Below are positions 10,483 to 63,020 of a DNA stretch of 64,000 nt, one piece after another (positions within the stretch are counted from its first letter, which is position 1; the number at the start of each line of letters is the position of its first letter). This stretch comes from Polytrichum commune (lineage: Eukaryota > Streptophyta > Polytrichopsida > Polytrichales > Polytrichaceae). The notes below the pieces were generated by a model, which was given only the letters and a program-made list of their open reading frames with translations, searched no databases and was not told the DNA's origin. The stretch spans positions 56,663,169 through 56,727,168 of the forward strand of contig OX485806.1 of the NCBI GenBank assembly GCA_950295325.1. The letters are read 5' to 3'. A program made the translations under genes and the position numbers.

Positions 10483-10723
10483 CGCACGTCACCTAGTCAA
10501 CTATTCACGTCACCCGTTCACCCGTTCAACGCTGCGGATATCGTGGATGTGAGTTGCCGTGACCCCGCCAAGTGACATGAAACTGGTGTGGAAGAGAGCT
10601 CATTTGATGAGCCCGCCTTCCTGCCGGCCGTTGCAAGAGTGCCGTTGCGGCACTTTTTCTGTCGCCGGGCCCGCCCACACCCTCGCCGGGAGGCTTCCCC
10701 GTGCGTGGCTGCGGATGCTCTAA

Positions 10724-17249: not shown

Positions 17250-17893
17250 CTAAAATCTTGCCACTGCCAACAAATTATCCGAATTTGAAAGTTCTATGGC
17301 TCCAACTAGTGAGACTGTGGTGGGCGATGGATTCAAACGCTCTGCTGTGTCCATTCCATCTGCTTGTGTGCCTGTACTAATGAATACATCCGTGGTGCAT
17401 TGTTCATGTCTTCTTGCGCGTGCCTCCTTTGCTAACACAACTCTCCACCCCGGTCTGCCCATTTCCTCTGACCAAAATACTTGTGTTGTTTGGCTGGGAA
17501 AAATAAACGGCTCGGACATCTTCGGCACTTTGTGGCGGAAATTAACGACCATGAATCCGGCATCATCTCTTACATAAGTAGGATTACCCCGATTGTCGCA
17601 TTGTTTCATCCACTTGCACCTAAAAAATATAACATGGGTTTGAAGATGGCCATAGTTCAATTTGAGGATATCCTTTAAAACTCCCACATAGTTCAATGTT
17701 GTTGATGCCGACTCCATCGAGGATATGTAAAACACGGAGGCCACACCGTTGTCATAAGTTTGTAGCGTGGCGGATTGCGGGTCCTCTACCCGAAAGTGGT
17801 TTCCATAGGCCTTCATCCTCGTGTACCGCGTGGCTAGTTGTGATGGTCTACTACACAACAACACTCGGTCCATGTCATCCGCGTTGTTGGGGT
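17250..17893 (-). pseudogene. CACTA TnpD transposase, C-terminal exon part 2 (DUF4216)
   Basis: Encodes the C-terminal DUF4216 domain that ends plant CACTA TnpD proteins. Recognisable segments are YNGVAS-type beta strand text (YDNGVASVFY), VLKDILKLNYG, FFRCKWMK, RDDAGFMVVNFRHK, SEPFIFPSQTTQVFW and WRVVLAKEARARR, followed by a variable tail to the stop at 17250. The frame is open, but its 5' side is interrupted at 17893/17894 by a solo LTR. Deleting the LTR and one GGGGT copy joins it in frame to 19381-19500. It is the last coding part of the gene whose other pieces lie at 19381-19948 and 41740-44430. Confidence 0.82.
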
Positions 17894-19948: not shown

Positions 19949-19960
19949 CCGCCATGCACG

Positions 19961-21255: not shown

Positions 21256-24200
21256 CTATGTCAAGAGGCCCCCTTTGATGATGAGTTTGACCTCATTGAA
21301 GCTAAAGGTAGGGGCGTGAATGAACAAGTCAACTTCGGGGTCTACATTAGAGACCTTGACAAATATGAAGTAGAGGTGCTTACAATGCAGGAACGAATTT
21401 CGTTTACGGCCAAACTTTGATATCATATCCTTGAAGGCCGGGCAATTACACTCCGGCAGGGAACTGATTGTGAGTTGGTAAATTGATTGAATAGGTGCGG
21501 GTTTGGACTGCAACATGATAACGCAACCAAATCCAAGGCGTGGAATCATGGTCACCTTCAAAATGGTCCCATCCATAGCTCGTGTAGATGCGACCATCTG
21601 CATTTGTTTTGTTGATGGTGCGGTTGCAAACCGTCTTGTAGTTTTGGACTGTCTGGAAGAAGGATACGAGTCTGGGTTGGCAGGAACGTCCACTTCAGAG
21701 AGGTCGAGTGGAGGAGCCGATGTGTTGAAGAGGCAAGTGGGCGTGATGCGCTCTTTTTGAGGGAGCTGAAAGTCGGCGTTCTCAAGCTTAAGGATCTCTG
21801 GACAAGTGAGGTTGGTACCAATTTTGACATGCCACACGGGCGGGATTGGAGGTCGTTCTTGGTCTGCAGAGAATTTGTCGACTCACTTGCGACGGGATCC
21901 TTTGACACAACGTTCAATGTCGTCTGGGCAAAAAAAAACTTCTCGACCTCAGGTGTTGTGAATTTGTAATAGTTCCAAACTCCAATGTATGCCGGTGCAG
22001 GGGTGCTCTTGGAGTTGGAGACGATTTTGGCAGTGCATTTCTTCTTTGTGACAGCATGCATGGCCCAACATGCTTTGGAGGAATTGTAAGGAACTCGAGC
22101 AATATGCCAGAGCTTCTCGTCCACATTGGATTCTTGTACGGCAGTGACACGACGGAAATCCAATCCAGTAGGAGGGGGTAGTGGAACTGTAGTAAGTTTT
22201 CTGCTAGGGCTTAAAAACAACAAACCCAGGGAACAAGGTCTCCAAGAAGACTGAGCTAGTGTCTATAAGGGTTAATGTCACATTGGATTAAGGTTCACAA
22301 TAACATTATAGGGTAATTCTCATTCTTGACTCTCTTCCATCTTAAATTATCCCATCCTTTCTCTTCTTTATTAGTTCATATGTGATGGTTCGGTAGCGAA
22401 TGTTGTCTGTCCTATCTTTCAGGTAGGTACTATCACTCTAAGGTTCGACCTATTTCCGTCGTGAATTTGGACTATAGTCTCATAAATTTCGTAACCTCGG
22501 ACAATTGTCTTTGAGTATCCGGTCCATAGTCATCCAATGGATTTTCATCCTATTGGGGTTAGTATCATTTGATTTCCCTAAAACAACATCACAAGATCTT
22601 CAATTCAAACTCAAATTATCTCATTCAATACAATGGATTAGTTGATTATTTTATTCGCATTAATCTTTATTTGATAACTTATCTCAATCATGAACCATCA
22701 TCCATGCCATTTCGGTCTACAATCTCTGCACATTCCAAGATAGAATAACAACACGGGACTATATTCCATATTAATTCTTAAGCCTTAGGTGTCTGAGTGT
22801 TATTCCAGCCAATCAATTATGTAATTTCAATCGTTTCTACTTCAATTCATTATCTCGACATTGCAATGTAATCTCGCACGCTCGGCAATGATGCCCAGTG
22901 CATCTCTCAGCCTGCATTTCCATTTCATCAGGGACTAGCCTATCTGTATTCCCATCATTAAACAACACTCCTCTAATCCCTAACAACTCCCATCATCATC
23001 TCTCTCTCTTCCCTTACATGCTGCTCATTCTCCCCTGCGACTGTAGTCTTTCTCGGCTCCTTGTAGTAACGCTACGCCTCAACCCTCTGACCTATCTCTC
23101 TGGTCTCTCTCTTATCTTTGCCTATGATCGGATGTTCTTATCCTTACCGGCTCTCTGTAACTCCAATTAGGTAATTCCTCCCACATTACACTCCAATATT
23201 ATCTCTCTGATAAAGCTCCGATAGACCATAGTCCGTTTATCGCTGCCTCGTTTTGCTTCTCTCTCTATTACAATTTGCTCAATATTGAGGTTCACGGCTT
23301 GACTGACGCTCAAGGATATGTCGTACATAAGCCTCTGTAATTTCACTCTTCGGATGCCTCTCAACAAATTGATCTGCCCGGACCTTCAGGCAACTTCTTC
23401 GGTCTCTTTCTCAATTTTCTCTCATACAGTTTATCTCAAGGCTTTCTTCATTTTTTATTATTACATTTCCAATCTCTCCAGTCGGTATCTCTATTTTTTG
23501 ATGCACATTCACTCACTCTCTTCGCCACATTATTTCTTCCTTCGAAATGCTTTCGATCTTATCGGTTCTGTTAGGCGGTTTGTTTCACAGACAATCACAT
23601 TCTTACATTCTCTATCTCATTGCAACCTAAACTTCTCACTTACATTCTTACTCACTCCAATCACTCCTTGCACATCCTGACATTGCTTTCATACACTTGC
23701 ATACTCCGCAAAAACACTTAATTACTTTCAAATTGATTACAATATCAAAACTTCACTCTATCACAGAGTTGAAGTTAAGTTTTTCACTCGGCATTTGGCC
23801 GACCCTACTCATTCTTCGCTTATCAGCGACTACTCTAGACTATAGCCTGAATACACTTTTTGATTATGGCCTGTCTTCTCTCTTGGCCGATAGTCTCTTA
23901 TCGTCTCCCTCTCTCAGGCGGTTACAACTATTTCCTGAGGTCCTTTGGTTTCTAAAACCACTGTAAAAATCCTTTCATCTGACTATAGTCCGATTTTTCC
24001 ATCCCTTTGTCCAAAAACTTGGCTAAAAAATGCCTCTATTTAGACTATAGCCCAAAAATCTGCTCTACAGGAACCTCGAGCACTGTCGGGGAGGACTCCT
24101 CGATGATGGTAGGCAAAGGTGAAGCGTGAGATCTTGTGGTTCTTTGAGCGACACGAGGGCAAGAGAAGTTGAGGGTGTCAGGGCGGTGGGTTTCATCGTC

Positions 24201-26735
24201 AGCTCTAATGGATGTGTCAGGCTTGCGTTTCTCGGAGCCAAAGACCTCGGCACCCTCAAGGTGGGGACTACAAGTACAAAATTCTTCTCCGCCAGGCATG
24301 TCGAGAAGAACCTTCTGCAGGACAGCGTGGTCACCAGTACGTTGAGCTAGGGCTTTTTTGCTAGGGCCATCGCCCCCAACGCCACCCTTAAGAAACTGAT
24401 GGTACGCCACAACTTGGAGGAAGGCTCGAATATAGTCATCCACAGTGGCCACGTATAGATCGCCACCTTTGTTGCCGGACGTTTGGAACCATTTGTTGTG
24501 AATGGACTCGGGAATGTTGCAATTGGGCATTTGTGCAAATTCCTCGGCGGTCATGATTTTCTCCTGCGAAATAAAAAGGGTGTGCAAGAAATAAGAAAAG
24601 TTTGGAAAAGAAGATAAAACAGAAAACAAAGAGCAATAACACTAAAGACGCACCAATTCCATGAAGCCACCCCATTGTCGATAACGAAAGTGCCAGAAGA
24701 CTAGCCAAAGCTGAAGGTGTTTCAGCCCCTCCTCGGAGGTGCAGTTAGACGAAGCCCACCAGGCCTTGATGGCGAGGTACCTCGTTTCCGCCTCGAGCAT
24801 AGAGGATGTGTCGCGATACTGCAGGCAGAGACACTTGTGTTGGTCTTGCAAGTCATGCTTGATATATAGCTTGGTGTGTTTCTCCAAAGACTGGGCCAAT
24901 GGAAGTAGCACGTTCTCTCACGCCCATCGATGGGAACCTTTGGGTCTCCGGACCCGTAAACAATCCTAACGGCATTCCAATTGGCTTGGGCACTGTCTGC
25001 CATGAAGCCTTTGAAGTGGGGCTTGGGGATTCCATGGCGGGCCATGATGTGGTTGAGGTTATGCCAGAAAAGAACTTCGGATTGGAAGTCGCAGCAAGCG
25101 ATGGTCATGACGTGCTGGTAGGTTCCGTCGTATACGTGGCAGGCCATGGTGGTCCACTTGGCGACGCGTTTGACATGGTCGGACATGATCCAAGCATGCT
25201 CGAGATCTCCGCCAGGTTGCATGTGCTTAACCAAGTCGACCCCACTACCAGGGCGGACTTCGGACATTTTGAAAACGAAAACCTTGTCCGTAGCGTCACC
25301 TTGGCCTGGGAATTGATTCCGCTGGACATAGGCCCAAGTGCTGACACCTCGAAGCTTGGCGATGCCATCCATAACCCCCAATCTACGTAAGTATTTGAAA
25401 GTGGTAACCTTGTTTTGGAGGTGGGGGGAATGCAACTCCTTGCAACGATAAAAAAATGGGCTCAAGTTCTTCCAAGGAAAAGAGTTGATGAGGATCAGTA
25501 TCATTGCAGAGGGGGAACTCATCCACAAGGTCCTTGTTGGCTTCAAGGACGATTTTGCTATGGGTGGCTTGGGGCGTTCGCTCGACGTGCTCCTCGATGA
25601 GGGCGTCGATGCGCTGTTGGCTATTTCTGCAATTGCCAACCTTGACGGGATGATGATGGTTGCCCAGATGAATATAGGCACGCTGAGTGGTGGTATTGCC
25701 ATGACATGGTGCAATGCATTTGGGAGGCTCCTTACATATCCGGCACATTAGAGTGGATCCCAAAGGGAAGGGTCCACCAACGGGGAAGAACTCCTTGGTG
25801 AAACCGTCGAAATCAGTATCATTGACCGGGGAAGTCCGATGAGCACGTTGTAGGTAATTGCACTGAGGATTTTGGCATTGGAGGTGGCCAACACAACTGG
25901 AGGAGCAAAAAGCAAGGCCCATGTCATTGGTGATATTGGTGGTCTGGGTCTTAGTCCAAACATGGCCGTCATAGCGTTTGTCAATGGATTGGGCCTTCTT
26001 ATGAAAGGAAGGGACACCGAGTGGGGGTAGGACAAGCATAAGATCACCATCAAAGCGAGGTGGCAGGAAATTCACCTCTTCAATTTGTAAGGTGTCATAA
26101 TCCTACTTCTTGAGGATGTTCTTCCTACCGGGCATGGAAGCAAGAGAACGTAGACATTGAAGAATTGAAAAGGTGGATTTAGGAGGGGAGGGGGGAAGAG
26201 GACACTGGGGATCGAGGCTTACAAAAGGGGGGGTCACAGAGGGGGGACAGAGAGAGGAGGAAGATGGCTCGACCATAGGGGTGGAATGAGTGGGATCATC
26301 ACCATCGGATGAATCAGAAAATTGTATGACAGTGTGAATACCAGGTTCAATTTTGACACGAACGTCGGGAGGGGTGTTGAAAGTGGAAGCGGACGAATAA
26401 GGAGGGGTGCGGATTTCTATGGAGACGTGTGGCCGAGATTCAGGGAGACCGTAGACTCTGTATTTACCAACGGCGAGGTCCCACACAGATGGACCGTTGT
26501 CGGCAAGAATGGGATTCTCACGCATGGTAGAGGACAACAAAGAGGTAAGGGGATCATAAATCTCGCGTTCAACCCAAATAGAGGCATCATGTAATGAGAA
26601 CCTGATACAAAGGTGAAGGGAAGAGACACGTGCAAATCCGTTAGCATCTATGGGGAAAAGGATGGAAACTCCGAAGCCATTTGCATGGATCTCCGCCATG
26701 TCTGACACAGATGGCACGGAAGATGAGGAAGCCAT
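21256..26735 (-). pseudogene. MULE transposase, decayed and split by a solo LTR
   Basis: Read from 26735 (ATG of MASSSS) down to about 21256. Order: a Ser/Pro-rich N-terminus; a Cys-rich zinc-binding segment (CSSSCVGHLQC, CRICKEPPKC) near 25930-25730; the MULE DDE region at about 25400-24900 (HVMTIACCDFQSE, GFMADSAQANW); an intron at about 24564-24656 with canonical borders; a linker; and a C-terminal SWIM zinc finger near 21430-21350 (CNCPAF, then HCKHLYFIFV). Lesions: TAG at about 26103, one-base frameshifts near 25450 (a run of 7 T on this strand), near 24905 and near 21880, and an LTR at 22188-24069. The frame is continuous across the LTR site once one GGAAC copy is removed. Not functional. 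Confidence 0.8.
22183..24074 (+). mobile_element. Solo LTR, family B, inside the MULE transposase
   Basis: LTR 22188-24069 (1,882 bp), starting TGTAGTAAG and ending CTGCTCTACA. It is flanked by a perfect 5-bp duplication GGAAC (22183-22187 and 24070-24074). Pyrimidine-rich with at least ten copies of GACTATAGTC-like palindromes (for example near 22470, 23840, 23980 and 24040). Open frames such as 23318-23680 are Ser/Phe/Leu-rich low-complexity artefacts. No retroelement protein inside. Confidence 0.85.
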
Positions 26736-28086
26736 GTGTATATATAAGGAATAGAGGAAGGATGCCAAAAAGGGAAACCGGGCCTCGGCTGGAAAAAAAG
26801 GGAAAACCCTAAACATCGATCGGCATTATAAAGACAAGTATAGGGAAGGGAAGGGTCAGTATGTGCGCAAAGAAGTGAGATGCCCTAAGAGTATAGCATA
26901 GGAGAGAGAGAAATATTTAGAACCGGGAAGCACACATGAAGGAAACAGGCAACAGTGTAGTCTCCACAACGGATCTTGGAAGAAAAAGGAAGAAAAGAAA
27001 GGGAGGCACGAGTTTCAGCACTTCAAAACAGAGGCGACGGAGAGAACTTAGGAAGAAAGAGCAAACGTGTATAGAGGGAAGTGAGACACCAACAAACTTG
27101 AGCCAGACGAGCGGAGAGGTTGAGACAAGGGCATCAAGTAGGAACGAGGAACTGCAACGGATAGAGGAAGAAGGGGAGCAGAGTGGATCAGGCGAACCAT
27201 CAATGGGAGATAGCGAGCATCGAAGCAATTCCAATAAGAGCGAAACAGAGGAGGAGATAAAAGGGGACTCAATTAGCACAATAAGTTTGGGTTTAGGGTT
27301 TAGGGTTTAAAAGGCAAAAATACATTTAGGTTTTTGCAAAAATGGCATTACAAATTAAGCTCTCTAAATATGGATGACAAGTTCGGACTCCATATGGCGG
27401 TTGGATTAGTTTTGAAGTCGGTAGTGTTAAGGGTGACTGAACAATATGGTGAATGATATGTAGATTTAAATTGCAAAACTCAGAACAATACATTTGCTGA
27501 GATTGTGTGCGAGAAATCTTGAAATGGAAATTGAAGTTCGAAAGTTACAGTTGAATTTTAGATTTGTTCAATTTTCTTGAAATGATAACGACGATGTGTG
27601 GAAGTGATTACGAAATGAAATTACTGGTGTAAAGGGAGTATATTTCTGGACCATCTCGGAACCCAAAGATCGAAGAACGGTTATATTTTAGGTGAAGATT
27701 GTAAAGGCAAGCATGCTTGATAAGGAATAAAAATATTGGTATATCACTTTCGCTTTGAGGGCTCATTTCACAAAGTCGGACTAGAGACAAGCTCAACAGA
27801 GTCTTCGTGCCCTGCTGATTCTGCCAAGCCCGTTCCCTTGGCTATGGTTTCCCTAGATAGTAGATAGGGACAGTAGGAATCTCGTTAATCCATTCATGCG
27901 GGTCACTCCGCACCACCCTCTCGCCACCCTCTTCCAAGCCCATTGCCTTGGCAGTGGCTAGATAGTAGATAGGGACAGTGGGAATCTCATTTCTCCATTT
28001 ATGGTTGCAACTCTCGCCGCCCGTACCCTAACTAGTACGCTCAAGATCGCCCGCGCTCACCAACCAACCCGTTTCCAGATTGTTAG
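26736..28086. other. MULE interior, no supported gene
   Basis: A plus-strand ATG frame at 26936-27310 encodes a Lys/Arg- and Glu/Ser-rich peptide of 124 residues with no known domain. It is divergent from the transposase and could be an accessory ORF, but composition alone could keep it open. At 27288-27308 there are three units of GGGTTTA, a tiny telomere-like run. The rest shows nothing recognisable. Confidence 0.35.
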
Positions 28087-28605
28087 AATGCTAGGTGTAT
28101 ACAGAATGTTGGCAAGATAGTTTGAAATGTTTGATTTTTTGATATTTCAGTCGGGGGGGGGTTTGAGTTCATTAATCCAAGCACCCTCTCGGCCCCGAGA
28201 GGGTGGCCTTATTATGTTTAGGTGTATACAGAATGTTGATAAGATAGTCTGAAATGTTTGATTTTTGGATTTTTCAGTCGGGGGGGTTTAAGTTCATCAA
28301 TCCAAGCACCCTCTCGGCTCCGAAAGGGTGGCCTAAGTTTGTTTAGGTGTATACAGAATTTTAGTAAGATAGTCTGAAATGTTTGATTTTTCGATATTTC
28401 AGTCGGGGGGGGTTTAAGTTCATCAATCCAAACACCTTCTCTGAGTCGAAAGGGTGGCCTAAGTATGTTTAGGTGTATACAAATTTTTTGTAAGATAGTA
28501 TGAAATGTTTTATTTTTTTATTTTTCAGTCGGGGGGGCAATTAAGGTCATTAATCCAAGCACCCTCTCGGCCCCGAGAGGGTGGCCTTATTATGTTTAGG
28601 TGTAT
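28087..28605 (+). repeat. Minisatellite block 1 (about 124-bp unit, 4 copies)
   Basis: Four tandem copies of a unit with the order GTGTATACAGAATGTTGG, TCTGAAATGTTTGATTTTT, ATTTCAGTC, a run of 6-8 G, TTCATCAATCCAAGCA, and a hairpin with arms CCCTCTCGG and CCGAGAGGG. The same unit continues from 29590 after an insertion. Confidence 0.9.
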
Positions 28606-29589
28606 TGTCACCAAAAATTTCCCACCCTTCGATTTCTTCCTAGCCCGAGTCGAAAAGTTATAATGACACGTAGAAAATCCTCCCTTGGTAATTCAATGTA
28701 TGATTCCAATATACCCTTGGAATATACACAACTTGACTAATCCACACTATGTCATCTTATATTCCTTAACTTCGGGTAAGGTCACATCCTTAGTCTTCTC
28801 CAATGTCCACCCAGCCGCCTTGGCTACGCCTGCCTTCAATGATTTCCCTCGTGTGAATCGAGTCTTCGCCGTTGATTCCATACTATTGCACGAACCTTCG
28901 CTTGTTGATTCCATGAAGCACATAAGTTTAAGTATTAACAAATACTTGTGTAACTTATGGTGGCCTCTCCTTCACAGGCCTTCACATTCCATTACTAAGT
29001 TCAACCTCAATGGTCAATCACCAATACATTCAAAAGTTACACACACCCCTTCCTACCTAATGAATCCAACACTTTAAGTCTAAACATCATAAGTCAAAAA
29101 CTATAAGAGTGTGTCACTATTTTTTTGGAAGTTTCGACATAGTTTCGGTTTTTTGGCTCTCGAAAATTCATATGAAGTCCAAAAAATGAGTTCTTGGTAT
29201 CCATGGATAGGTAATGAAGTCCTCTACATGAATATGCAATAATATTTCTACTGCCATAAAGTATATGGTCGCAATTCTACGCTGTTCCCTTTGAATCTGC
29301 ACTTTTTCACTAGTTTTTGGAAGTTTGGACATAGGTTCGGTTTTTTGGCTCTCAAAAATTCATATGAAGTCCAAAAAATGAGTTCTTGGTATCCATGGAT
29401 AGGTAATGAAGTCTTCTACATGAATGTGCAATAATATATCTACTGCCAAAAAGTATATGGTCGCAATTCTACGTTGTTCCCTTTGAATCTACATTTTTTC
29501 ACTAGTTTTTAGAAGTTTGGACATAGTCTCGGTTTTTTGGCTCTCAAAAATATATATGAAGTCCAACAAAACTAAATGCTCCAATAAGA
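28606..29589 (+). repeat. Insertion in the minisatellite with its own 190-bp repeat
   Basis: Begins near 28611 with TGTCACC and a degenerate family-A-like block (CCCACCCTTCGATT, CCTAGCCCGAGT). This is followed by non-coding sequence and, from about 29122, about 2.4 tandem copies of a unit of roughly 190 bp (GAAGTTTGGACATAG, GGTTTTTTGGCTCTC, GGTATCCATGGATAGGTAAT). Clear target duplications were not found. Confidence 0.6.
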
Positions 29590-32500
29590 GCCTTTGCATG
29601 TATACAAAATGTTATTAAGATAGTCTGAAATGTTTGATTTTTTGATATTTCAGTCGGGGGGGATTAAGTTCATCAATCCAAGCACCCTCTCGAAGCCGAG
29701 AGGGTGGCCTAAGTATGTTTAGGTGTATACAAAATTTTGGTAAGATAGTCTGAAATGTTTGATTTTTCGATATTTCAGTCAGGGGGGATTTAAGTTCATC
29801 AATCCAAATACCTTCTCTGAGCCCAGAGGGTGGCCTAAGTATGTTTAGGTGTACACAGAATGTTGGTAAGATAGTCTGAAATGCTTGACTTGTGGATTTT
29901 TCAGTCGGGGGGGGGGGGTTAAGGTCATTAATCGAAGCACCCTCTCGGGGCCGAGAGGGTGGCCTTCATATGTTTAGGTGTATACAGAATGTTGGCAAGA
30001 TAGTTTGAAATGTTTGATTTTTTGATATTTCAGTCGGGGGGGGTTTGAGTTCATTAATCCAAGCACCCTCTCGGCCCCGAGAGGGTGGCCTTATTATGTT
30101 TAGGTATATACAGAATGTTGATAAGATAGTCTGAAATGTTTGATTTTTGGATTTTTCAGTCGGGGGGGTTTAAGTTCATCAATCCAAACACCTTCTCTGA
30201 GTCGAGAGGGTGGCCTAAGTATGTTTAGGTGTATACAGTATTTTTGTAAGATAGTCTGAAATGTTTTATTTTTTTATTTTTTAGTCGGGGGGGGGGGTTT
30301 AAGGTCATTAATCCAAGCACCCTCTCAGAGCCGAGAGGGTGGTCTAAGTATGTTTAGGTGTATACAGAATGTTGGTAAGATAGTTAGAAATGTTTTATTT
30401 TTCGATTTTTCAGTCGGGGGGGTTTAAGGTCATTAATCCAAACACCCTCTCGGCCTCGAGAGAGTGGCCTTATTATGTTTAGGTGTATACAATATGTTGT
30501 TAAGATATTATGAAATGTTTGATTTTTCGATATTTCAGTAGGGGGGGGATTAAGTTCATCAATCCAAGCACCCTCTCGGACCCGAGAGGGTGGCCTAAGT
30601 ATTTTTATGTGTATACATAATTTTGGTAAGATAGTATGAAATGTTTGATTTTTCGATATTTCAGTCGGGGGGGGGTTTAAATTCATCAATCCAAGCATCC
30701 TCTCGGAGCCGAGAGGGTGGCCTAAGTACGTTTTGGTGTATACAAAATGTTGGCAACAGAGTCTGAAATGTTTTATTTTTTGATATTTCAGTGGGGGGGG
30801 GGTTTAAGTTCATCAATCGAAGCACCCTCTCGGGGCCGAGAGGGTGGCCTTCATATGTTTAGGTGTATACAGAATGTTGGCAAAAGAGGTTAAAATGTTT
30901 GATTTTTTGATATTTCTGTCCGGGGGGTGTTTGAATTCATTAATCCAAGCACCCTCTCGGCCTCGAGAGGGTGGCCTTATTATGTTTAGGTGTATACAGA
31001 ATGTTGGTAAGATAGTCTGAAATGTTTGATTTTTCGATATTTTAGTCGGGGGGGTTTAAGTTCATCAATCCAAACACCTTCTCTGAGTCGAGAGGGTGGC
31101 CTAAGTATGTTTAGGTGTATACAGAATTTTTGTAAGATAGTCTGAAATGTTTTATTTTTTTATTTTTTAGTCGGGGGGGGGGGTTTAAGGTCATTAATCC
31201 AAGCACCCTCTCAGAGCCGAGAGGGTGGTCTAAGTATGTTTAGGTGTACACAGAATGTTGGTAAGATAGTTAGAAATGTTTTATTTTTCGATTTTTCAGT
31301 CGGGGGGGTTTAAGGTCATTAATCCAAACACCGTCTCGGCCTCGAGAGAGTGGCCTTATTATGTTTAGGTGTATACAATATGTTGTTAAGATATTATGAA
31401 ATGTTTGATTTTTCGATATTTCAGTAGGGGGGGGATTAAGTTCATCAATCCAAGCACCCTCTCGGACCCGAGAGGGTGGCCTAAGTATTTTTAGGTGTAT
31501 ACATAATTTTGGTAAGATAGTATGAAATGTTTGATTTTTCGATATTTCAGTCGGGGGGGGGTTTAAATTCATCAATCCAAGCATCCTCTCGGAGCCGAGA
31601 GGGTGGCCTAAGTACGTTTTGGTGTATACAAAATGTTGGCAACAGAGTCTGAAATGTTTTATTTTTTGATATTTCAGTCGGGGGGGGGGTTAAGTTCATC
31701 AATGCAACCACCCTCTCGGAGTCGAGAGGGTGGCCTAAGTATGTTTACGTGTATACAAAATTTTGGTAAGATAGTCTGAAATGTGTTATGTTTCGATTTT
31801 TCAGTCGGGGGGGGGGGGTTTAACGTCATTAATCCAAGCACCCTCTCGGCCCCAAGAAGGTGGCCTTATTATGTTTAGGTGTAAACAAAATGTTGGTAAG
31901 ATAGTCTCAATTGTTTTATTCTTCGATTTTTTAGTCTAGGAGGGGGTTTAAGGTCATTAATCCAAGCACCCTCTCGGCCCTGAGAGGGTGGCCTTATTAT
32001 GTTAAGGTTTATCCAAAATGTTGTTAAGATAGTATGAAATGTTTGATTTTTGGATTTTTTAGTCGGGGGGGGGGGTTTAAGTTCATCAATCCAAGCACCC
32101 TCTCAGAGCCGAGAGGGTGGCCTTCATATGTTTAGGTGTATACAAAATTTTGGCAAGATAGTCTGTAATGTTTTATTTTTTGATATTTCAGTTAGGGGGG
32201 ATTTAAGTTCATCAATCCAAGCACCCTGTCGGAGCCGAGAGGGTGGCCTTCATATGTTTAGGTGTATACAGAATGTTGGTAAGTTAGTCTGAAATGCTTG
32301 ATTTTTGGATTTTTCAGTTGGGGGGGCGGTTTAAGTTCATCAATCCTAGCACCCTCTCGGAGCCGAGAGGGTGGCCTAAGTATGTTTAGGTGTATACATA
32401 ATATTGGTAAGATACTCTGAAATGTTTTATTTTTCGATATTTCAAATGGGGAGGGGTTTAAGTTCATCAATCCAAGCACCCTCTCAGCCTTGAGAGGGTG

Positions 32501-33915
32501 GCCTTATTATGTTTAGGTGTATACTGAATGTTGTTAAGATAGTCTGAAATGTTTGATTTTTTGATATTTCAGTCGGGGGGGGGGGGTTTAAGGTCATGAA
32601 TCCAAGCACCCTCTCGGTTCCGAGAGGGTGGCCTTATTATGTTTAGGTGTATCCAAAATGTTGTTAAGATAGTCTGAAATGTTTTTTTTTCGATATTTCA
32701 GTCGGGGGGGAGTTTGAGTTCATCAATCCAAGCACCCTCTCAGAGCCGATAGGTTGGCCTGAGTATGTTTAGGTGTATACCGAATGTTGGGAAGATAGTC
32801 TGAAATATTTGATTCTTAGATTTTTAAGTCGGGGGCGGGGGTTTAAGGTCATTAATCCAATCACCCTCTCGGAGCCGAGAGGGTGGCATAAGTATGTTTA
32901 GGTGTATACGGAATGTTGGTAAGATAGTCTGAAATGTTTGGTTTTTGGATTTTTCAGTAAGGGGGGGGGGTTTAAGGTCATTAATCCAAGCACCCTCTCG
33001 GCCCCGAGAGGGTGGCCTTATTATGTTTAGGTGTATCAAGAATATTGTTAAGATAGTCTGCAATGTTTGATTTTTGGATTTTTTAGTCGGGGGGGGGGGT
33101 TTAAGTTCATCAATCCAAGCACCCTCTCGGAGCCGAGAGGGCGGCCTTCATATGTTTAGGTGTATACAAAATTTTGGCAAAATAGTCTGAAATGTTTTAT
33201 TTTTCAATATTTCAGTTAGGGGGGATTTAAGTTCATCAATCCAAGCACCCTCTCGGAGCCGAGAGGGTGGCCTTCATATGTTTAGGTGTATATAGAATGT
33301 TGGTAAGATAGTATGAAATGTTTGATTTTTGGATTTTTCTGTCTCGGGGGGGGGGGTGGGAGTTCATTAATCCAAACACCCTCTCGGCTCCGAGAGGGTG
33401 GCCTTAGTATGTATGGTTTATCCAAAATGTGGTAAGATAGTTGAAATGTTTGATTTTTGGATTTTTCATTCGGGGGGGGGGGGGACTTCATTAATCCAAA
33501 CACCCTATCGGCTCCGAGAGGGTGGCCTTATTATGTTTATGTGTATCCAGAATGTGGTATGATAGTCTCAAATGATTGATTTTTGGATTTTTCAGTCGGG
33601 GTGGGGGGTGGGAGTTCATTAATCCGAGCACCCTCTCGGCTCCGAGAGGGTGGCCTTAGTATGTTTAGGTGTATCCAGAATGTGGTAAGATAGTCTCAAA
33701 TCTTTGATTTATCCATTTTTCAGTCGGGGGGGACTTCATTAATCCAAACACCCTCTCGGCTCCGAGAGGGTGGCTTTATTATGTTCAGGTTTATCCAGAA
33801 TGTGGTAGGATAGTCTCAAATGTTTGATTTTTGGATTTTTCAATCGAGGGGGGGGGGTGGAAGTTCATTAGATTAAGCACCCTCTCGGCTCCGAGAGGGT
33901 GGCCTTAGTAGGTTT
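29590..33915 (+). repeat. Minisatellite block 2 (about 124-bp unit, about 35 copies)
   Basis: Roughly 35 tandem copies of the same unit. Each has a plus-strand run of 6-14 G directly after ATTTCAGTC and, about 35 bp later, a near-perfect 9-bp-stem hairpin (CCCTCTCGG/CCGAGAGGG) with a 0-3 nt loop. Stem changes are sometimes compensated or G-T paired. A higher-order repeat of about 886 bp (7 units) is visible, 29963-30848 being copied as 30849-31734. The open frames across the array are repeats of one peptide pattern and are not called as genes. Confidence 0.92.
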
Positions 33916-33998
33916 ATGTACTCCAATCCATCATTCTTTTGTTTTTTTTTTTGCTTTTGTTTTTTGTCATTTCTAACTTTATGTTTGTCTCCTTTTAG

Positions 33999-36374
33999 TT
34001 GGAGAAGGGGGTTGAGGCTGAGATCGCCTCCTTCAAAAATGAATGCTCGATCGACGTGGACTGGGCTTCTGCGGAGGACGTCATGTAGCCTGCTCATTAC
34101 GTCGAGCATTGGAGGCTGGTTTTGTGGGACAAGGCTTTTCGTGTCTATTTTGACGAAAATGGAGAGTTCAAGTTTACCAAAGGTCTTAACCTCATGGAAT
34201 TTCAAGAAGGCCCCATAGCTATCAAATGCGTCGTTTATCGGTAATGTTTTATTTTTTCTTTTTAATCTTCATATACTCATTTGGTTTCCCCTTTTCCCAT
34301 TCCATTACCGTTTTCTCATGTTCTTCAATTTGCAGGTACATTCGTGAGTTTGTCTTCAAAAATGCTTTTCCTCGTTCGTCTTTGCCTTCATTCCTTGAAG
34401 ATTGGCTCCATACGAGGTACAGTTATTGTGTGTACACTCTCATGCAGATTACCAAATTCCCACGCGCACACTTGGTCGCAGGTGGCTAGTACTTGGACTG
34501 TTCTCGTGGATTCGTACGCGAATCTGAGGAACCACTTTACATCAGCCTCATTTCTTCTGCCCCGGAGGTAATTGAACTGGAGGAGGAGCCGGAAGAAAAC
34601 GAGATCCCGCCTCCTCCCACCATTGTGAAAGAGATTGGGTCCGCAAAGGGTAAGGGTAGGAAGCTTGTCCCCCATGCATCTTCTCAAGTTTCTACTCGTT
34701 CTTACACCAACCACCACTCCTTCTGCCCCTGGCCCCGATCCGGTACCAGCTCCTTCCCATAGCGGCGCAACCATCCCATCGATGCCTCGCAAGAGGAAGG
34801 CTGTTGCACCGGATACATCGGCAACTTCCTTGGATAGGTCATCTAGCCTTTCATTGATTAAGAATGTGGACATGGAAGAGCTCATTGAGGATCTCATGAA
34901 GACGAAGATTCAACCTCCCGCCTACCGCCGCATCCAAGAATTGACAACCAAGGTTTATATGCCGATCTCTAGTTTTATCCTTTGATTCCTTAGAGTTCAA
35001 CATTCGTTTTTTTGTTATTAATTTTGTTTGTCTATTTGCTTCTCAGGTTGGAGTAGGACGTACTCGTCCAAACACGAAGCCTAAGATTCACACGGGCATT
35101 GACCTACTCTTTGCAGATTGTACCCGAGAACTTATGTGTGCCTAGCATCTCGGCCTTTTCCTCGGATGTTCCTCAGTAGAACAAGCGGTCTTCCACTTAC
35201 TTTGAGGTTTTGTTTGCTTTTGCAAGTGCCAACCTGCATGACAACGGCGTCCTCGTCTTCGTACATGCCGCTGATCCGGAGGTCTCTAGATCAATTCACG
35301 ATTGGGCACACACTGAGGAATTCTACGTTGCCGAAGATTGGTTTGGCATGAATGACCTTGATCTCCAATCGCCCACTAATCCTTCTGACTTGGTAAGTCG
35401 TTTACGGCTTCATCCATTTTTATTCTTGCCTTATTTTTTTCATTTATGTATTCTTAATTCTACCGTTCATTTTTTTGTTCAGACTCGCAAGTTCTTCATC
35501 AAGGTGCTTGTTCGTAATGATTCTATCTTGAGTTTCCGTACCTCGGAGTTCCAAGACATTGGTTACAATATTAAGAGAGATGGTTGGCTCAACAGCTTCG
35601 TTGATGCAAAGAACTAGTCGATGAGGGAAGACGGGATGCCCTGGAGAAGTGCTCGTGAGAAACGCTCCGAGTTCTTTTCCATCCATTTCTCTGCTCTCAC
35701 GGACAATGACGACATTATAATGGATTGGCAATGTGGCGTTGGTATGTTCTTAATCTCCTTGTTTCTCATTTTTTTTTTTTTTTTTCCTAGTTCTTTCGTT
35801 TCTTTTTGTTTTATTTTACGTTCATTCCCGTATACTCACCTTTGCGCATTTGGTTGTACTAGGAGGCTTCGTCATAGCATGCCGCTCCATTCAACGACAT
35901 ATTATAGCTTTGGAGTCGGACATCGACATCTACAAGTCCGTCCTCCTCCCCATGCGTGAGGCCAACCAATAACATACCTCTCAGCATGTGGCCCCTCAAC
36001 GACGCTCGGTTTTTGCTCCTCTTCCTTGGAAGATGGCGAAGCGCAATTTTGATTTGCTGTGTGCGTAAGTTCGTTATTGGCTTCGAACTTGCTTTCTTTC
36101 ATTTCTATCTTCTCGGTTCGAAGTTGTTGGCATGGGCTAATGTAATTTTATTCTCGTCCTGTATGTTCAGAGTTCAAAATGAGAGCCCGATTCGCGTCCT
36201 TACCGCGGACATGTTTTCAACGCCTTCGACGACGTTCGAGCTCCCTTCCTATGCAGCTGGGCTTGCCAATCTTTTGGCGGAAGCACCGTCCCCACCTCCT
36301 TTTCGCACCCGCCCTTTCAACAAATTATTTTTGGATTTCCTAGACATAGAGGCCGATCAGGGAAAAGATATGTG
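33999..36374 (+). pseudogene. DNA N6A/N4C-type methyltransferase-like gene, spliced and broken
   Basis: Exon-intron pattern on the plus strand with canonical borders: exons about 33999-34240, 34336-34416, a central low-complexity part to 34953, 35047-35392, 35483-35741, 35863-36064 and 36171-36374. Methyltransferase signals come in permuted (beta-class) order. First is a motif IV-like strand, GIDLLFAD (about 35095-35118). Then NLHDNGVLVFVHAADPE (strand beta-5 region) and EDWFGMNDLDLQSP. Then DDIIMDWQCGVG (motif I-like Asp and Gly residues) joined by splicing to a strand and acidic end, QRHIIALESD. This resembles N6_N4_Mtase proteins; the DPPY-type tetrapeptide itself is damaged. In-frame stops at about 34086, 35177, 35615 and 35968, plus a frameshift near 35118. 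The 3' end is cut by an LTR at 36371. N-terminal exons were not found. Confidence 0.55.
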
Positions 36375-38039
36375 AGCCCAAAATGGTACTCATATGTGTT
36401 CTTAATTCTTCGAGACCATTAGAAGTTATGTTTTAATATTTATTGATTATTCACAAAAATATAAAAAGAGTGAAGTGTGAAGTGTGAAGTGGATTAAGTT
36501 TAGACATTAGAGGACGTTGTGTGATTGTCTCAAGGTTTAAGTTCAATGAGGTAATGCCTTAACTAGGTGAGTATGGAGTAAGGTGAGGCGAGAGGGGATC
36601 CGCGGATTAAATGCCCACATTAGGATCCACCTTGTTGGTTTAGGAATGGAAGAGCCTTGTGGATGGGATGAGTCCCTACTTAGAAGGAGAAGGTTAAGGG
36701 ATTGTGATTGGAGGCTCTAATCCTCTCACCCTATCCTTACCTCATGCCCTCTCCTCCTCTTTGCTACTTAAGACTTCCCTCTTTCATTTTTTTTTTTTTT
36801 TTTTTTTTTGGTGCTCCTTGGCACCCCACGGGTTATAAGTGTGGGTGTGTAGGAAGCAAGAGAGGAGCACGTGTGTGCGCAAGGCTTAAGTAGAGGAATC
36901 AAGACTAATTAGTCTAGAGGTTAGTTTCACTTGGTTGTGTGTGTGTGTGTGTAGAGGTGTGTGTAGAAGTGTGTGTAGAAGTGTGTGTAGAAGTGTGTGT
37001 CTGCGTGTGTGGGAGGAGCTAAGAAGGTCACTGAAGCCCCCCCTTCTATCTATCTCTCTTCCTCTATCTTTCTCCCTGTTTTCCTTCATCTCTTCCAAAA
37101 TAAAAATAAATAAAAATATAGTAAATAGCTTAATATCTGCAGCAGTAGAGCTGCGTATTCACAGAGTATTTTCAGCGTAGAGTTGTGTATATGTAGCAGT
37201 AGAGCTGCGTATTGTAGCATATCTGCAATGTACCTGCAGCCGCAGAACTGCGCATTTGGATGGATTAGTATCTGCATAGTAGATAGCTTAGTATCTGCAG
37301 CAGTAGAGCTGCGTATTCACAGTGTATTTTCAGCGTAGAGTTGTGTATATGTAGCAGTAGAGTTGCGTATTGTAGCGTATCTGCAGTGTACCTGCAGCCG
37401 CAGAACTGCGCATCTGGATGGATTAGTATCTGCAGCAGTAGAGCTGCGTATTCACAGTGTATTTTCAGCGTAGAGCTGTGTATTGTAGCGTATCTGCAAT
37501 GTACCTGCAGCCGCAGAACTGCGCATCTGGATGGATTAGTATTTGCAGAGTAGAGCTACGTATTTGCAGCGTATATGTAGCGTAGAGTTGCATATTTGCA
37601 GCTTATCTGTAGCGTAGAGCTGCTGTGACATTTGAGGGTGTGGGATAAACTAAGAAAGGGGGTTAGTTGATGTTTGGGATTAGTGCGGTGACTTTGAGGT
37701 CGTCACCAAGGTGGCGTTAAACGCAGAGTCGGCATCAAGTGGCGGAGTCGGCATCAAGTTACGGAGTTGGCATGGTGGTTTTGGCCTCACACGAGGTCGT
37801 AACGGAAAATAGTGTTTTTAAACACTTGTACTCTTATCGTGGACTCTTGAGAAATCTAAGGATGTACCTATGCAAGACGATCACATTAATAGAATGACAT
37901 GACTTTAAGTAAGTTGGAAACTCGTCGAGATGGAAGTCACATTCCATGTTACCACAAGTCTTGGTCCGACACATGTGATTCTCAAAACTATCACCCGGAC
38001 TAGGACGCTCAAGGGTGGTGGGTTTGGCCTCACAGGATA
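36366..38039 (-). mobile_element. Solo LTR, family A, minus strand, in the methyltransferase-like gene
   Basis: LTR 36371-38034 (1,664 bp). Read on the minus strand it starts TGTGAGGCC with the block ACCCTTGAGCGTCC, TAGTCCGGGTGAT, and ends GGGCTCACA. The flanks AGATA (36366-36370) and GGATA (38035-38039) differ by one base, so this is an aged 5-bp duplication. It holds a T-run (about 36787-36810), a GT-rich microsatellite (about 36937-37010) and irregular tandem repeats with GCAGTAGAGCTGCGTATT (about 37110-37625). Its first bases create the TGA stop now ending the interrupted gene. Confidence 0.78.
37110..37625. repeat. Irregular tandem repeats inside the solo LTR
   Basis: Copies of GCAGTAGAGCTGCGTATT, TTTTCAGCGTAGAG and CTGCAGCCGCAGAACTGCGC in variable order, with the recurring marker GGATGGATTAGTAT at about 37259, 37416 and 37529. 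This variable region accounts for part of the length difference between family-A LTRs. Confidence 0.75.
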
Positions 38040-38364: not shown

Positions 38365-38690
38365 GTGGTCACGGATTTTTAGGTGGCTAGGACTTGATTT
38401 TGGATTAATGTGGATAGTTCATTTTATTTTCAAGTAGGCTCTCAGCTCCGACAGGGTAAGGTCTTAGGTGTCTAGGACCAGATTTTGGATTAATGGGGAT
38501 GGTTGATTTTATGGTTGGGTAGGCTCGGCTCCGATAGTGTAAGGTCTTAGTTGAAGGGGACCAGATTTTGTATTAGTGTGGATGGTTGATTTTATGTTTG
38601 GGTAGGCTCTCAACTCCCAAAGGGTAAGGTAATAGTTGTCTAGGACCACATTTTGAATTAATGTGGATGGTGTTAGTTGTGGACTTGATT
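38365..38690 (+). repeat. Tandem repeat, about 88-bp unit, 4 copies
   Basis: Units contain TAGGACCAGATTTTGGATTA, ATGTGGATGGTTGATTTTAT, and AGGCTCTCAGCTCCGA followed by AGGGTAAGGT. Copies are diverged from each other. Confidence 0.75.
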
Positions 38691-39074: not shown

Positions 39075-40665
39075 TGGGCATCTCTCGGCCACATTTGAGG
39101 AAGGTTCCATTCTTGAAGGTGTGTCTCTCGGTCAAAATTTATGCATTCTTGAATCTATGTGTTGAGGTTAAGCTCTTAGCCAGATTTCAACATTCTAGGA
39201 TCTTGTGTTTGAAATTAAGCTCTTAGCCAGATTTATGCATTCTTGAATCTATGGGTTGAGGTTAAGCTCTTGGCCAGATTTCGGCAATCTAGGATCTTGT
39301 ATTTGAGGTTGAGGCCTTGGCCAAATTTCATATTCTTGGATCTGGTGTTTGAGGTTAAGCCTTGGCCAAATTTCATATTCTTGGATCTGGTGTTTGAGGT
39401 TAAGGCCTTGGCCAAATTTCAAATTCTAGTATGTTGTGTTTGAAATTAAGGCCTTGGCCAAATTTCAGATTCTTGGATGTTGTGTTTGAGGTTAAGGCCT
39501 TGGCCAAATTTCATATTCTTGGATCTGGTGTTTGAGGTTAAGGCCTTGGCCAAATTTTAGATTCTAGTATGTTGTCTTTGAGGTTAAGGTATTGGCCAAA
39601 TTTTAAGCATTCTTTAATCTTTGGGTTGAGGTTGATGTCGCGCACCTCTCCATGAGGAGTGGCCAAAACACCATGGGCACAAGGGGGGACCCCGGAGTGA
39701 CACCCGGGACTTGTGGCGCCGCTGGTGAGAGGGCCCCGGGCGTTGGGAACGCCTCCCACCCACGAAGATTAGGAGGCACAAGGGTAAGGCCATGAGTTAT
39801 GCGTAGCTCATGGCGTGGTGATTCTAGAAAGCTCAAGAACACCTCAATCGGAGGTGTGAGCTAGGAGTTATGGCCATTTGAGTGGGGCGCTGTCCCGGGA
39901 CAACGCCCTGGTACAGCAGTGCCTGGGAGTGATTCCCGGGACAGCCAAGGTTCAAACAGGCATAACTTCCTCAAGACTTTCTCAAATGGAGCAAGTGAGG
40001 AGTCCATTGGCATGTACGTGAAGCGTAGATGAACATGGAGTGGTTGGTTGTTATGATCAGACATCATACAAGGAAGTTATGATGGTCTGAAGCTGCTGGG
40101 GGGTTCTAGGCCCAGCAGCTAAAGGAAAATGTCCACTTGGCCCCAACTCTTGGTAGAGAGACAAGAGGTTGGTTGACGGTGGGGTAGGGGCCCCGCGTGA
40201 AGTCCTCGAGGCTTATATGGGTGAGGTGGTGTGGCCTCACCCACCCGAGGCCGAACGGCAAGGCCTCCATGGGCTTTGGCCTATTGTGAGGCCATAGTTG
40301 CCTAGTATGCTTCGGGTTGTTGTAGTGTTGCTCCGGCAACGCGATGATCAACATAGGATTGGACTTCCATGGATGGAAGTCCACATTGGGGAAATGGGTT
40401 ACCGATTAAGGGGTGAGTCCCGAAAGCAAAGTAGGAGGGTTGGTTCCCTCCTATGAGCTATATGGTCCGGGGTAGAAGGAGCTAACCATTAGCATGGCGG
40501 AATGCGAATGGTTAGCGCTCGTAACCTTTGCTAGAATTGAAAATTGGCAAGATTATCAAGGGGGCTAGCAAGGGTTGCGACAGTTAAGGCCTTGGCCAAA
40601 TTTCAGATTCTTGGATCTGGTGTTTGAGGTTAAGGTCTTGGCCAAAATTCACTTAATTTTTGAGT
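39075..40665 (+). repeat. Tandem repeat, about 60-bp unit, interrupted by a solo LTR
   Basis: About nine copies of a unit containing GAGGTTAAGGCCTTGGCCA, AATTTCAGATTCTTGGATC and TGGTGTTT from about 39110 to 39635. Two more copies resume at 40583-40665 right after the family-C LTR, showing that the LTR landed inside the array. Confidence 0.85.
39631..40587 (+). mobile_element. Solo LTR, family C
   Basis: LTR 39636-40582 (947 bp), starting TGTCGCGCACC and ending GGGTTGCGACA (inverted ends TGTCGC/GCGACA). The flanks GTTGA (39631-39635) and GTTAA (40583-40587) differ at one base. More GC-rich than families A and B and without their signature blocks. It splits a tandem repeat whose unit continues on both sides. 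No internal protein-coding region. Confidence 0.75.
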
Positions 40666-40696: not shown

Positions 40697-41013
40697 GTTG
40701 TGGAAGATCGCTCTAATTCCACGTCATGGAGCCACTCGTATTGCATCTGGACCTAGATGTACAATTGTCAGTCTTAGTTCCCAACTTATTGGTGGGTGCC
40801 GCAAATGTGAATACGGGCCGGGAGACGGTATTGGACACCCAACGTCGTTTGTCGCTAATCCACGATTTGAAGCTATGTTGCAAATCATGGAAAAATATTG
40901 TGGATAAAAGTGCCGAGTACAATGCTCGTCATTTGGCTCAATACGAATATGCCATGGGTCCCAATGTAGACTTAAGGGTGTGTTTGCCACGCGAACATAA
41001 CCTCATCACATAA
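40697..41013 (+). pseudogene. Possible captured F-box-like gene fragment
   Basis: After a plausible acceptor (TTTATCAG before 40697), a plus-strand frame from 40726 encodes 95 residues. They end in LKLCCKSWKNIVDKSAEYNA, RHLAQYEYAMGP and then a stop at 41013. The CKSW pattern resembles the end of an F-box motif. The fragment sits about 700 bp from the MULE right end, where Pack-MULE captures are common. The family assignment is tentative. Confidence 0.3.
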
Positions 41014-41739: not shown

Positions 41740-42430
41740 CCGCCATGCACGCCTCCGATCTCGCCATGGTCCTAACATAATCCTTTAATGTCTTCATGTA
41801 CGTTTCAATAGGATACATCCACCTTGAGGATACAGATCCACACACATCCAATTCATCGACGAGGTGATATACTAAATGTGTCATTACATCAAAAAATGAT
41901 GGTGGGAAATGAATCTCCAGAAGTGCCATGCTCCGTGCCACGTCCGCTTGTAGAGCTTGAATTTGCGAGGGATTCCACACGCTATTGCATATTTTCCAAA
42001 ACACCCTGGAAATTCTCATGACTGCCATTCTTGGTCCACGTTGCAAAAGACCGCGTAGGGCTAAAGGCATGACTTGTTGCATGAGCACATGGTAGTCATG
42101 TGACTTCAACCCCCAAATTTCTTCTTCTGTATGTACTGTGCCATGTTCGAAACTAGGCTTGAAGGTGGCTTCAGGGACTCTATGGTGTTGGCAAAAACGT
42201 CAAATTCATCACTAGTCAGCACATACAGGGCAGTTGGCTTCAGCATTCTACCATTTTTTGGGGGATGAGGAATAAGCCACAAATGTCTCCTAATGCCTCT
42301 ACGTTGCAGGTCTTGCCTAACCTTCACCGTATCCTTGAGGCCGGTCAAGGTCTTCAAAATATTTTTGGCAACATTTTGCTCGCAATGCATAACATCCAGC
42401 GTGTATCGTATGAGGAGGTCTTGCATTGTT
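41740..42430 (-). pseudogene. CACTA TnpD transposase, middle exon (DUF4218)
   Basis: Encodes DLLIRYTLDVMHCEQNVAKN, the conserved sequence following PYW(K/R) in CACTA TnpD. Next come QRRGIRRHLWL and the DUF4218 domain (HDYHVLMQQVMPLALRGLL, FPPSFFDVMTHLVYHLVDEL, CGSVSSRWMYPIETYMKTLK, YVRTMARSEACMA). A one-base shift separates two open stretches at about 42107, where the frame passes from KKKFGG to LKSHDYHV. The exon is cut at 41740 by the MULE. Continuing at 19948 after removal of the insert keeps the frame (EACMA-EGYVRDEC). Confidence 0.85.
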
Positions 42431-42780
42431 ATAAACTTCAGAATATTTTCTACACACACTAACACCACCGCAAGAAAATCGGCAAACAACGACTTTGTTT
42501 ATGACTGTGATTTTTGTTGTAAACGTTGGAAAGTTTGTCATTAAAGGAGTTCTTAAGGACACCCAGTCATTGATTAGTCAAGGTCAGAAAGGACAAGTTA
42601 TCTTGTGTTGTCACATACGCTTCATCTACATTCTGGACTTTCGTTAAGTGCAATGCGAGCAGGGATTCACTATGTGTGGGAATACACACATTACATACCC
42701 AGAACATTCTTGAGTTATAGGACACATCACCAAGAATCCTTTAAACAATTAATATGTAAATGCTAATCAAGCATTACCCT
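42431..42780 (-). other. TnpD intron or insert containing a copy of a CACTA end
   Basis: Separates the codons for MPYWR (42780 side) and DLLIRYT (42424 side). A GTAATG donor follows MPYWR. The nearest in-frame AG acceptor (CTGAAG, near 42437) would add five residues. Inside, 42466-42565 on the plus strand (CACCGCAAGAAAATCGGCAA and onward) matches the reverse complement of the element's right end at 58065 for about 100 bp, including GGACACCCAGTC. So a piece of CACTA terminus lies within this intron or insert; no second end was found. Confidence 0.6.
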
Positions 42781-44430
42781 CCAATAGGGCATGTTATGTA
42801 GAATACTCCTCCTTTTGACACCATGCACTTTCGATGGATCTCCCCCACTTTCTTTTTTGTTGCCCTCATCCAGCCATTTCTGGTACTCAATGGCTTTTTG
42901 CACTTGCTCCTCTGCATTGACTACATTGGGCTTGCCCCGGTCCTCTTCACGGCCATTAAAGTGGTCCTTCATTGTCGTGGACCTCCATGGGTCGTCATGT
43001 GGTAGCCACCTCTTGGTGTCCATGTACGTTTGTTTTCCAAGTTCAATTGAGTGTTCACCTTTGAAATGCGGTCCATAAACCAGACATGCAACATAGCCTT
43101 GATGTGCAACACCTGCAATAGTACCATATCCCGGAAAATCGTGCATCGTCCATAGCAACACAACTCGAAGTTTGAAAGCCCTGGAGCCGTGATCTTTCAA
43201 CACATCATAGGCAACCACACCCTTCCAAAGTTGCACCAACTCCTCAACCAGAGGCTCCAAGTACACATCAAAAAAATTTGAGGTCATAGATTGTTTTCCT
43301 GGAATCAGCAAAGCTAACATGATGATAATTTTCTTTGTGCTCAACCAAGGAGGAATGTTGTAATTCAACAACATTACCGGCCATGTGTTCCAACTGCAAC
43401 GCTGCAGTTTGAAAGGGTTCACGCCATCCGCTGCCAATCCTAGGTGAATGTTACGGTCGTCATTGCCAAAACTACAATCTACAACTTCATGTACATGCCT
43501 CCATGCCTTGGAGTCACACGGATGTCTTACTAATCCATCTGTACTCTTATTCTTTGCATGCCACAACATAAGCTCTGATATTGCCGGCGTGCAAAACATA
43601 CGTTTAAGCCTAGGGATCAAAGGGAAGTGCCTAAGGACTTTCCATGGTCTTTTTTTTTTGGCCTCGTCTTTGTACCACGGTTTCTTACACTTTGGACAAC
43701 ATGTGGCATCTTCATATTGTCCCCTAAACAAAACACAACCTGCTTGGCATGCAGGAATTGTGTTGTAATTTAATCCTAGTTTTTGTATCAAGGTTTTTGC
43801 GGCATGGTAGTTTTTGGGCAATTGATTCTCACTTGGAAGAAGGTGTTTGCGGAATAGTGTGAAGAGCTGATCCGCAAATTTGTTGCTCACGCCATGTATC
43901 GTGCACAAAGTCATTATCACGATTGTGGCTGCCATGATTGACGACCTTGCTCCATGGTACAACTCCTCCATGGCTTCCTCCAAGACGCGTGGGTCGTCAT
44001 GATTCTCTTCTTTGGGAGTGCTGCCTTTGTTGTCCCCCATAGGTTCGTCATCTGTCCCATCGTCGGATTCATCCACACCAACATTTGCTAGTTCGTCCGC
44101 AATTGTCAAGGTTTCCATGACAATGTGTTCAAGTTGTTCTTCCAATGGAGGCACTGGGAGTGGGGGCTCATCGCATTGTTGAAATGCGTCCTCAACCATG
44201 CCCTGCATATCCAACCCCGCATCAAACTGTCCATCATGTGCTCCGCAAGGTCTCCTAAACTTTTGTTCCCATTCGTCATCGGAGGCATCCCTTGCTCTAG
44301 GGCCCCTCCAAACTCTGAATTCAGGTTCTCTGCCATTGTGTATAAGGTGATCCTTTACTTTTGCCAATGAGCACTGAACTTGACCTTTGCATGCAACATG
44401 GGCAATGTAGTCGTTTCAATTTGTACTAAG
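42781..44430 (-). pseudogene. CACTA TnpD transposase, N-terminal exon (transposase-associated and tnp2 domains)
   Basis: Open for more than 530 codons. The start extends past 44367 into CKGQVQC, part of the N-terminal transposase-associated zinc-binding domain, with HLIHNGREPEFRVW after it. An acidic linker follows. Then comes the Transposase_21/tnp2 region: CQAGCVLFRG, CPKCKKPWY, RHFPLIPRLKRMF, MLWHAKNKSTDG, DGVNPFKLQRCSWNTWPVML, NIPPWLSTKKIIIMLALLIP, VYLEPLVEELVQLW, RVVLLWTMHDFPGYGTIAGV and CLVYGPHFKGEH. It ends SILHNMPYWR at the donor near 42781. In the family this protein cuts the element ends. No lesion is visible in this exon, but the gene is broken downstream by two insertions. Confidence 0.9.
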
Positions 44431-60804: not shown

Positions 60805-60809
60805 CTAAT

Positions 60810-61007
60810 TGATGGACGCCGTGGGTCGTTCCTTTGTAATTAACTAAGAAGACTCATGATGAGACATCATGTAAATTTATATTCGCTTGAGAACTACCGT
60901 GTCTCATTAATATGTTCGGTCTCGAATTAATAATCTCTCTCTTCTCCTTGTGATATGAATATAATTATTGGTGTAAACACAATCTCATTATCATATATTC
61001 TCACTCT
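60810..61007 (-). repeat. 3' LTR of the retrotransposon (at least this part)
   Basis: Matched to 63803-64000. The inner boundary of this LTR cannot be placed because the other copy is truncated; it probably lies between 61300 and 61440. Confidence 0.85.
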
Positions 61008-62989: not shown

Positions 62990-63020
62990 TAATCGTAGCC
63001 GGTACCATTACTCGTGTGTA

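Follow-up and report, generated by a model that had tools for sequence, protein, structure and literature searches.

A decayed gene with a methyltransferase-like SAM-binding region inside a MULE-like DNA transposon of Polytrichum commune

We analysed a stretch of 64,000 nucleotides from Polytrichum commune (the window, in which all positions are counted from the first letter) and found a gene of at least six exons within a 21.8-kb DNA transposon. It lies on the strand opposite to the transposase-like gene of the element, and a long tandem array of palindrome-bearing units separates the two (Table 1). Judged by sequence likeness, the C-terminal region of its translation probably shares ancestry with the part of class I methyltransferases that binds SAM, the best fit being the beta-class DNA amino-methyltransferases, and we hold this assignment with fair confidence. 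We give about an even chance to the reading that such a gene served a large MULE-like DNA transposon of plants as an accessory gene, perhaps with a VANC-like role, and that the present copy is dead. The remains hint at an element that may formerly have encoded a helper protein of its own, one that bound or marked DNA.

Table 1. Features of the transposon, its insertion target and the methyltransferase-like gene (positions within the 64,000-nucleotide window).
Feature	Position	Strand	Remarks
Target-site repeat, left copy	19949-19960	.	CCGCCATGCACG; 12 bp at most, 10 bp used for the ends
MULE-like DNA transposon holding the gene	19960-41740	.	21.8 kb; later LTR insertions inside
Transposase-like gene	21259-26825	-	several frames, with stops and frameshifts
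Tandem array, first part	28092-28605	.	units of about 126-129 bp; 4 palindrome copies
Probable solo LTR within array	28606-29598	.	TG...CA; 5-bp repeat TGTAT on both sides; by reading
Main tandem array	29599-33916	.	34 copies of a 129-bp unit, each with a palindrome near CACCCTCTCGGnnCCGAGAGGGTG
Exon 1 as found	33999-34240	+	splice acceptor upstream
Exon 2	34336-34952	+	proline-rich end; one stop, one frameshift
Exon 3	35047-35392	+	one frameshift; reads DLLFADCTREL at the expected position of the catalytic motif, not DPPY
Exon 4	35483-35741	+	C-terminal end DDIIMDWQCGV(G)
Exon 5	35863-36064	+	remainder of motif I plus motif II (GGFVIACRSIQRHIIALESD)
Exon 6 up to LTR	36171-36370	+
Solo LTR breaking exon 6	36371-38034	.	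flanks AGATA / GGATA, 4 of 5 alike
85-bp tandem repeats	38379-38671	.	degenerate form of the CTCTCgGCTCCGAgAGGGT stretch of the array
Probable solo LTR in 46-bp minisatellite	39636-40582	.	TG...CA; flanks GTTGA / GTTAA; by reading
Coding stretch near right end of element	40726-41010	+	weakly F-box-like; Pfam F-box E 0.056, below cut-off
Target-site repeat, right copy	41740-41751	.
CACTA transposase gene (insertion target)	41741-44415	-	Transposase_21, first part of DUF4218; remainder left of 19959

Results

Ends, class and content of the element

The element is flanked on both sides by the direct repeat CGCCATGCAC, 10-12 bp in length. The two wide end regions have at least 42 10-mers in common, so the repeat alone proves little, and the proof is an open frame that runs through the joined flanks. 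This frame matches Pfam DUF4218 (E 1.7e-30, residues 71-175) with the junction after residue 149, and the element was therefore inserted into a CACTA transposase gene, of which Transposase_21 lies at 42766-44415 (E 3.5e-60) and DUF4216 at 17253-17909. The repeat and the join of the empty site thus fix the ends and bear out the preliminary description, which had placed the gene inside a transposon.

Target-site duplications of MULEs are about 8-11 bp long, and terminal inverted repeats are missing in non-TIR MULEs. The 10-12 bp repeat, together with the restored DUF4218 frame, agrees with such a length. The ends of the element are weakly alike: none of 500 shuffles reached the score over the first 60 bp, and 8, 20 and 6 of 500 did so over 120, 220 and 300 bp, respectively. 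By reading, and not by a profile, the gene at 21259-26825 resembles a DDE transposase: it shows an ESIHNKW stretch, a CxC...HxC SWIM-like finger and two stretches with Asp residues that look conserved. Pfam, at E up to 10, matched no transposase family in the pieces of this gene, and a degenerate-pattern search of viral contigs with the transposase found no close relatives. The element had been called Mutator-like; target-site length and gene content speak for this, and the Pfam search did not add to it. MULE-like is plausibly the best label on these two grounds, not as a profile result. The F-box-like stretch at 40726-41010 (+) is possibly a third gene of the element.

The whole array between the two genes holds 38 near-palindrome copies in units of about 127 bp. 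Its main part stops 82 bp short of exon 1 and is probably situated in an intron or in the 5' region of the methyltransferase-like gene. Selection on the palindrome was not seen among 36 units, in which its conservation was 0.913 versus 0.898 for the rest of the unit; being conserved no better than the remainder, the palindrome is not marked as a binding site. Between the start of the transposase and the array lies an open frame of 129 codons, rich in Lys and Glu (26921-27307, +), which could contain one of the early exons of the methyltransferase-like gene, or could be open by chance.

Structure and decay of the gene

The five introns of the gene (34241-34335, 34953-35046, 35393-35482, 35742-35862 and 36065-36170) are 90-121 nt long and all begin with GT and end with AG, in agreement with the canonical splice borders and the intron-containing gene of the preliminary description. 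Since exon 1 starts at a 3' splice site, earlier exons are likely, either beyond or before the array that ends at 33916. The four peptides that had been read as methyltransferase signals in plus-strand exons were all located: DWQCGVG closes exon 4, IIALESD is within exon 5, and LLFAD and GVLVFVH are both in exon 3, in two frames because of the frameshift within this exon.

The chosen coding track, with stitched exons of 1866 nt, contains five in-frame stops (34086, 34487, 35177, 35615 and 35970), whereas a single random frame of this length would have about 29, and the three naive frames of the same exon concatenation have 18, 22 and 18 stops. With these five stops and two frameshifts (in exons 2 and 3), the gene is a pseudogene. 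A solo LTR has also broken exon 6, and the copy is indeed broken, as had been described. When the flanks of the LTR are joined, the frame of exon 6 continues for about a dozen codons and then meets a stop. The LTR starts at 36371, and the apparent stop at 36373 is thus LTR sequence; position 36374, formerly taken as the end of the gene, is an LTR edge. A search for further copies of the gene within the window gave self-matches only, plus one match of 14 residues at E 0.86.

Likeness of the C-terminal region to methyltransferases

In Pfam searches with spliced exons 4-5, the best family was N6_N4_Mtase (PF01555), with E 0.017 for 53 aa, 0.056 for 121 aa and 0.23 for 285 aa. The matches covered profile positions 177-217 of 221 and scored 11.8-15.5 bits, below the curated cut-off of 26.7 bits, so that the family expected in the preliminary description came first while its score fell short; none of the methyltransferase matches reached a curated cut-off. 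A feature expected of members was found, in that the SAM-binding motif I lies near the C-terminal end, where DWQCGVGG is followed by a helix and an acidic E. The two best matches in the PDB were DpnA adenine methyltransferases (E 0.046-0.12), followed by a cobalt-precorrin methyltransferase (E 1), and methyltransferase families were also matched in PHROGs (E 5e-4 and 0.007). These matches, with the profile below, partly uphold the earlier suggestion of a methyltransferase, in that they support a methyltransferase-like SAM-binding region. On the motif stretch, NCBIfam ranked the tRNA methyltransferase Trm5b first (E 2.2e-4) and the DNA methylase CcrM third (0.027), with E-values of 0.024 for RlmC and 0.053 for RlmD, and Pfam Methyltransf_15 matched the motif region at E 0.17. 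With tblastn, 19 phage records were matched, none at E <0.09; 16 of them carry an annotation as DNA methylase or methyltransferase, two are hypothetical and one is without annotation.

Ten phage proteins were translated; two of these, Fus_c and E3b, in which motif I is N-terminal and which read as Dam-like, were excluded prior to the building of an HMM. The HMM of the remaining eight enzymes scored 22.9 bits for the read-through protein, compared to 5.1 for the best shuffle (2000 shuffles, 1318 scored); six of the eight proteins came from the query's own weak matches, and the 22.9 bits are therefore inflated. When the profile was made from the remaining two enzymes, the score was 5.7 bits, exceeded by one of 1307 scored shuffles (of 2000). 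By hhalign, the probability was 88.8% over 63 columns, including a KP-like stretch. Among 780 peptides of at least 40 aa in the window, the frame of exon 5 obtained the top score (6.8 bits) from the eight-enzyme HMM; once exon 4 was spliced on, the score rose to 22.9 bits, which supports the splice.

Similarity above chance was confined to the C-terminal motif region (motif X-I-II, exons 4-5). A degenerate-pattern search of viral contigs with this region found no close relatives. The sole pattern match in genome contigs, 28 residues in an Erysipelotrichaceae MAG, was rejected as chance; it lies in a frame of 98 aa overlapping a reading frame of 253 aa, and there was no second match at this locus (L008).

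Catalytic half

The part of exons 3-4 ahead of the motif scored -2.4 bits, a value reached by 913 of the 1542 shuffles that were scored out of 2000. The pattern [DNST]PP[YFWH] was absent from the plus frames searched, in the gene and in other stretches, the copy being broken. With neither a signal in the catalytic half nor this pattern, enzymatic activity is unsupported. The beta-class order, argued from LLFAD in the preliminary description, is not upheld by these exons, nor by the ranking of Trm5b above CcrM. It seems less likely that three neighbouring catalytic residues were lost by decay alone than that the motif was altered family-wide, because there are so few other lesions in the coding track.

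Discussion

If the gene was an accessory gene of the element, its intact protein would have recognised DNA of the element itself, with the palindromic array as the most plausible target, and might have marked it with N6-methyladenine or N4-methylcytosine. Alternatively, if the whole family is without the catalytic motif, it could have been a SAM-binding DNA-binding protein that shielded the repeats. Either activity would, by analogy with VANC in VANDAL, help the element to escape or steer host silencing. As far as the accessible text of the cited papers goes, VANC is the anti-silencing protein of Arabidopsis VANDAL elements (PMC5735166, PMC13317346), and the tandem repeats that it targets lie upstream of VANA21 and, in VANC21 and VANB21, within introns (PMC5735166). 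In what is described there, VANDAL resembles the present element in being of MULE type, with a transposase plus further genes and long non-coding tandem repeats in introns or upstream regions, and the extra gene is in both cases one that is proposed, here by analogy, to counter silencing. However, VANC has DUF1985 and DUF287, the accessible parts of the two papers do not describe it as a methyltransferase, and Pfam found neither domain in the translations of the exons from 33999 on.

There are precedents for an amino-methyltransferase-type gene in other transposons. The part of PMC12477816 available to us describes Sola1-1_Ec32 of Ectocarpus, with an accessory protein of 1104 aa, a full-length prediction, that combines ParB with an N4/N6 DNA methyltransferase, and cites green and red algal cases of transposon-borne N4/N6 methyltransferases. 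On this partial account, both elements are giant DNA transposons with a prokaryote-type amino-methyltransferase-like gene on the strand opposite to the transposase. They differ in that Sola1-1_Ec32 is a Sola1 element of a brown alga whereas ours is MULE-like and from a plant, and in that its protein is predicted at full length whereas our copy is broken and without the DPPY motif. No ParB-like domain was found; exons 1-2, from 33999 on, match no Pfam family. DIRS retrotransposons, according to the portion of PMC5890265 available, carry Dam-like adenine methyltransferases, so that an adenine-methyltransferase-type gene sits on a eukaryotic transposon there as well, although DIRS is a retroelement with Dam-like enzymes and the present gene indicates the beta-class type. 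With DpnA and N6_N4_Mtase (PF01555) the gene shares the motif X-I-II region over about 40-63 residues; unlike them, it has eukaryotic introns, and the catalytic motif and half were not detected in it. Since reports of N6/N4 methyltransferases in transposons already exist for algae and DIRS elements, the present case is a variant. The earlier view of base-modifying enzymes as an unfamiliar transposon cargo is tempered accordingly by these precedents, as far as the accessible text conveys them (PMC12477816, PMC5890265). Among the matches listed in a search of the literature, largely without subscription journals, there was no such gene in a plant MULE, and the words methyltransferase and methylase are absent from a paper on Mutator (PMC6446971).

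The strongest competitor of an accessory gene, possible yet on balance doubtful, is that an intron-containing methyltransferase gene of the host was transduplicated by chance in the manner of Pack-MULEs and had no role in transposition. The decay of the gene and the single copy seen within the window are consistent with such a capture. Gene pieces captured by transposons are usually fragments. By contrast, the present stretch is long, with 1866 nt of exons in at least six exons, and the element's own transposase-like gene and array are arranged around it. Uptake of host gene fragments with introns by MULEs is known, as stated in the accessible part of PMC13317346.

The accessory-gene reading can be carried further. 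A family of land-plant MULEs might have as a standing partner gene a relative of the beta-class amino-methyltransferases with an altered catalytic motif, which would recognise the element's own 38-copy palindromic array and shield or mark it so as to counter host silencing. Such a protein would correspond to VANC but be derived from a methyltransferase. We regard this extended form as unlikely. If intact relatives do recur in such elements, there would be plant transposons that bring their own base-modifying or base-modification-derived proteins, and this would bear on the origin of N6-methyladenine or N4-methylcytosine in plant genomes and on transposon counter-silencing.

It is a little less probable still that the motif region comes from a class I methyltransferase of another kind, Trm5-like or RlmC-like, with RNA or protein as its substrate. 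The NCBIfam matches to Trm5b, RlmC and RlmD, the Methyltransf_15 match and the absence of a DPPY-type motif would suit such an enzyme. However, only about 115 low-complexity codons follow the motif, too few for a domain that starts at motif I, and the matches to DNA enzymes extend through the stretch ahead of motif I. The annotations of the 16 phage records, none of them significant matches, and the two DpnA structures likewise point to DNA methylation. That the motif arose by chance in an unrelated transposon protein is very improbable, in spite of the weak database E-values and the catalytic half without signal, as four libraries point to methyltransferases for the same 40 residues and none of the 2000 shuffles reached the HMM score.

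Other mobile elements were seen elsewhere in the window. Near its right end, several long frames of an unclassified element (61332-63539, -) are accompanied by a 202-bp direct repeat (60807-61008 / 63800-64000, 97%). An apparently unbroken transposase frame of PIF/Harbinger type at 6767-8365 (+; Plant_tran, E 9.4e-87, and DDE_Tnp_4) adjoins a divergent frame at 8806-10488 (-) with a NAM-associated match (E 2.8e-5), and the two possibly form an intact two-gene Harbinger element.
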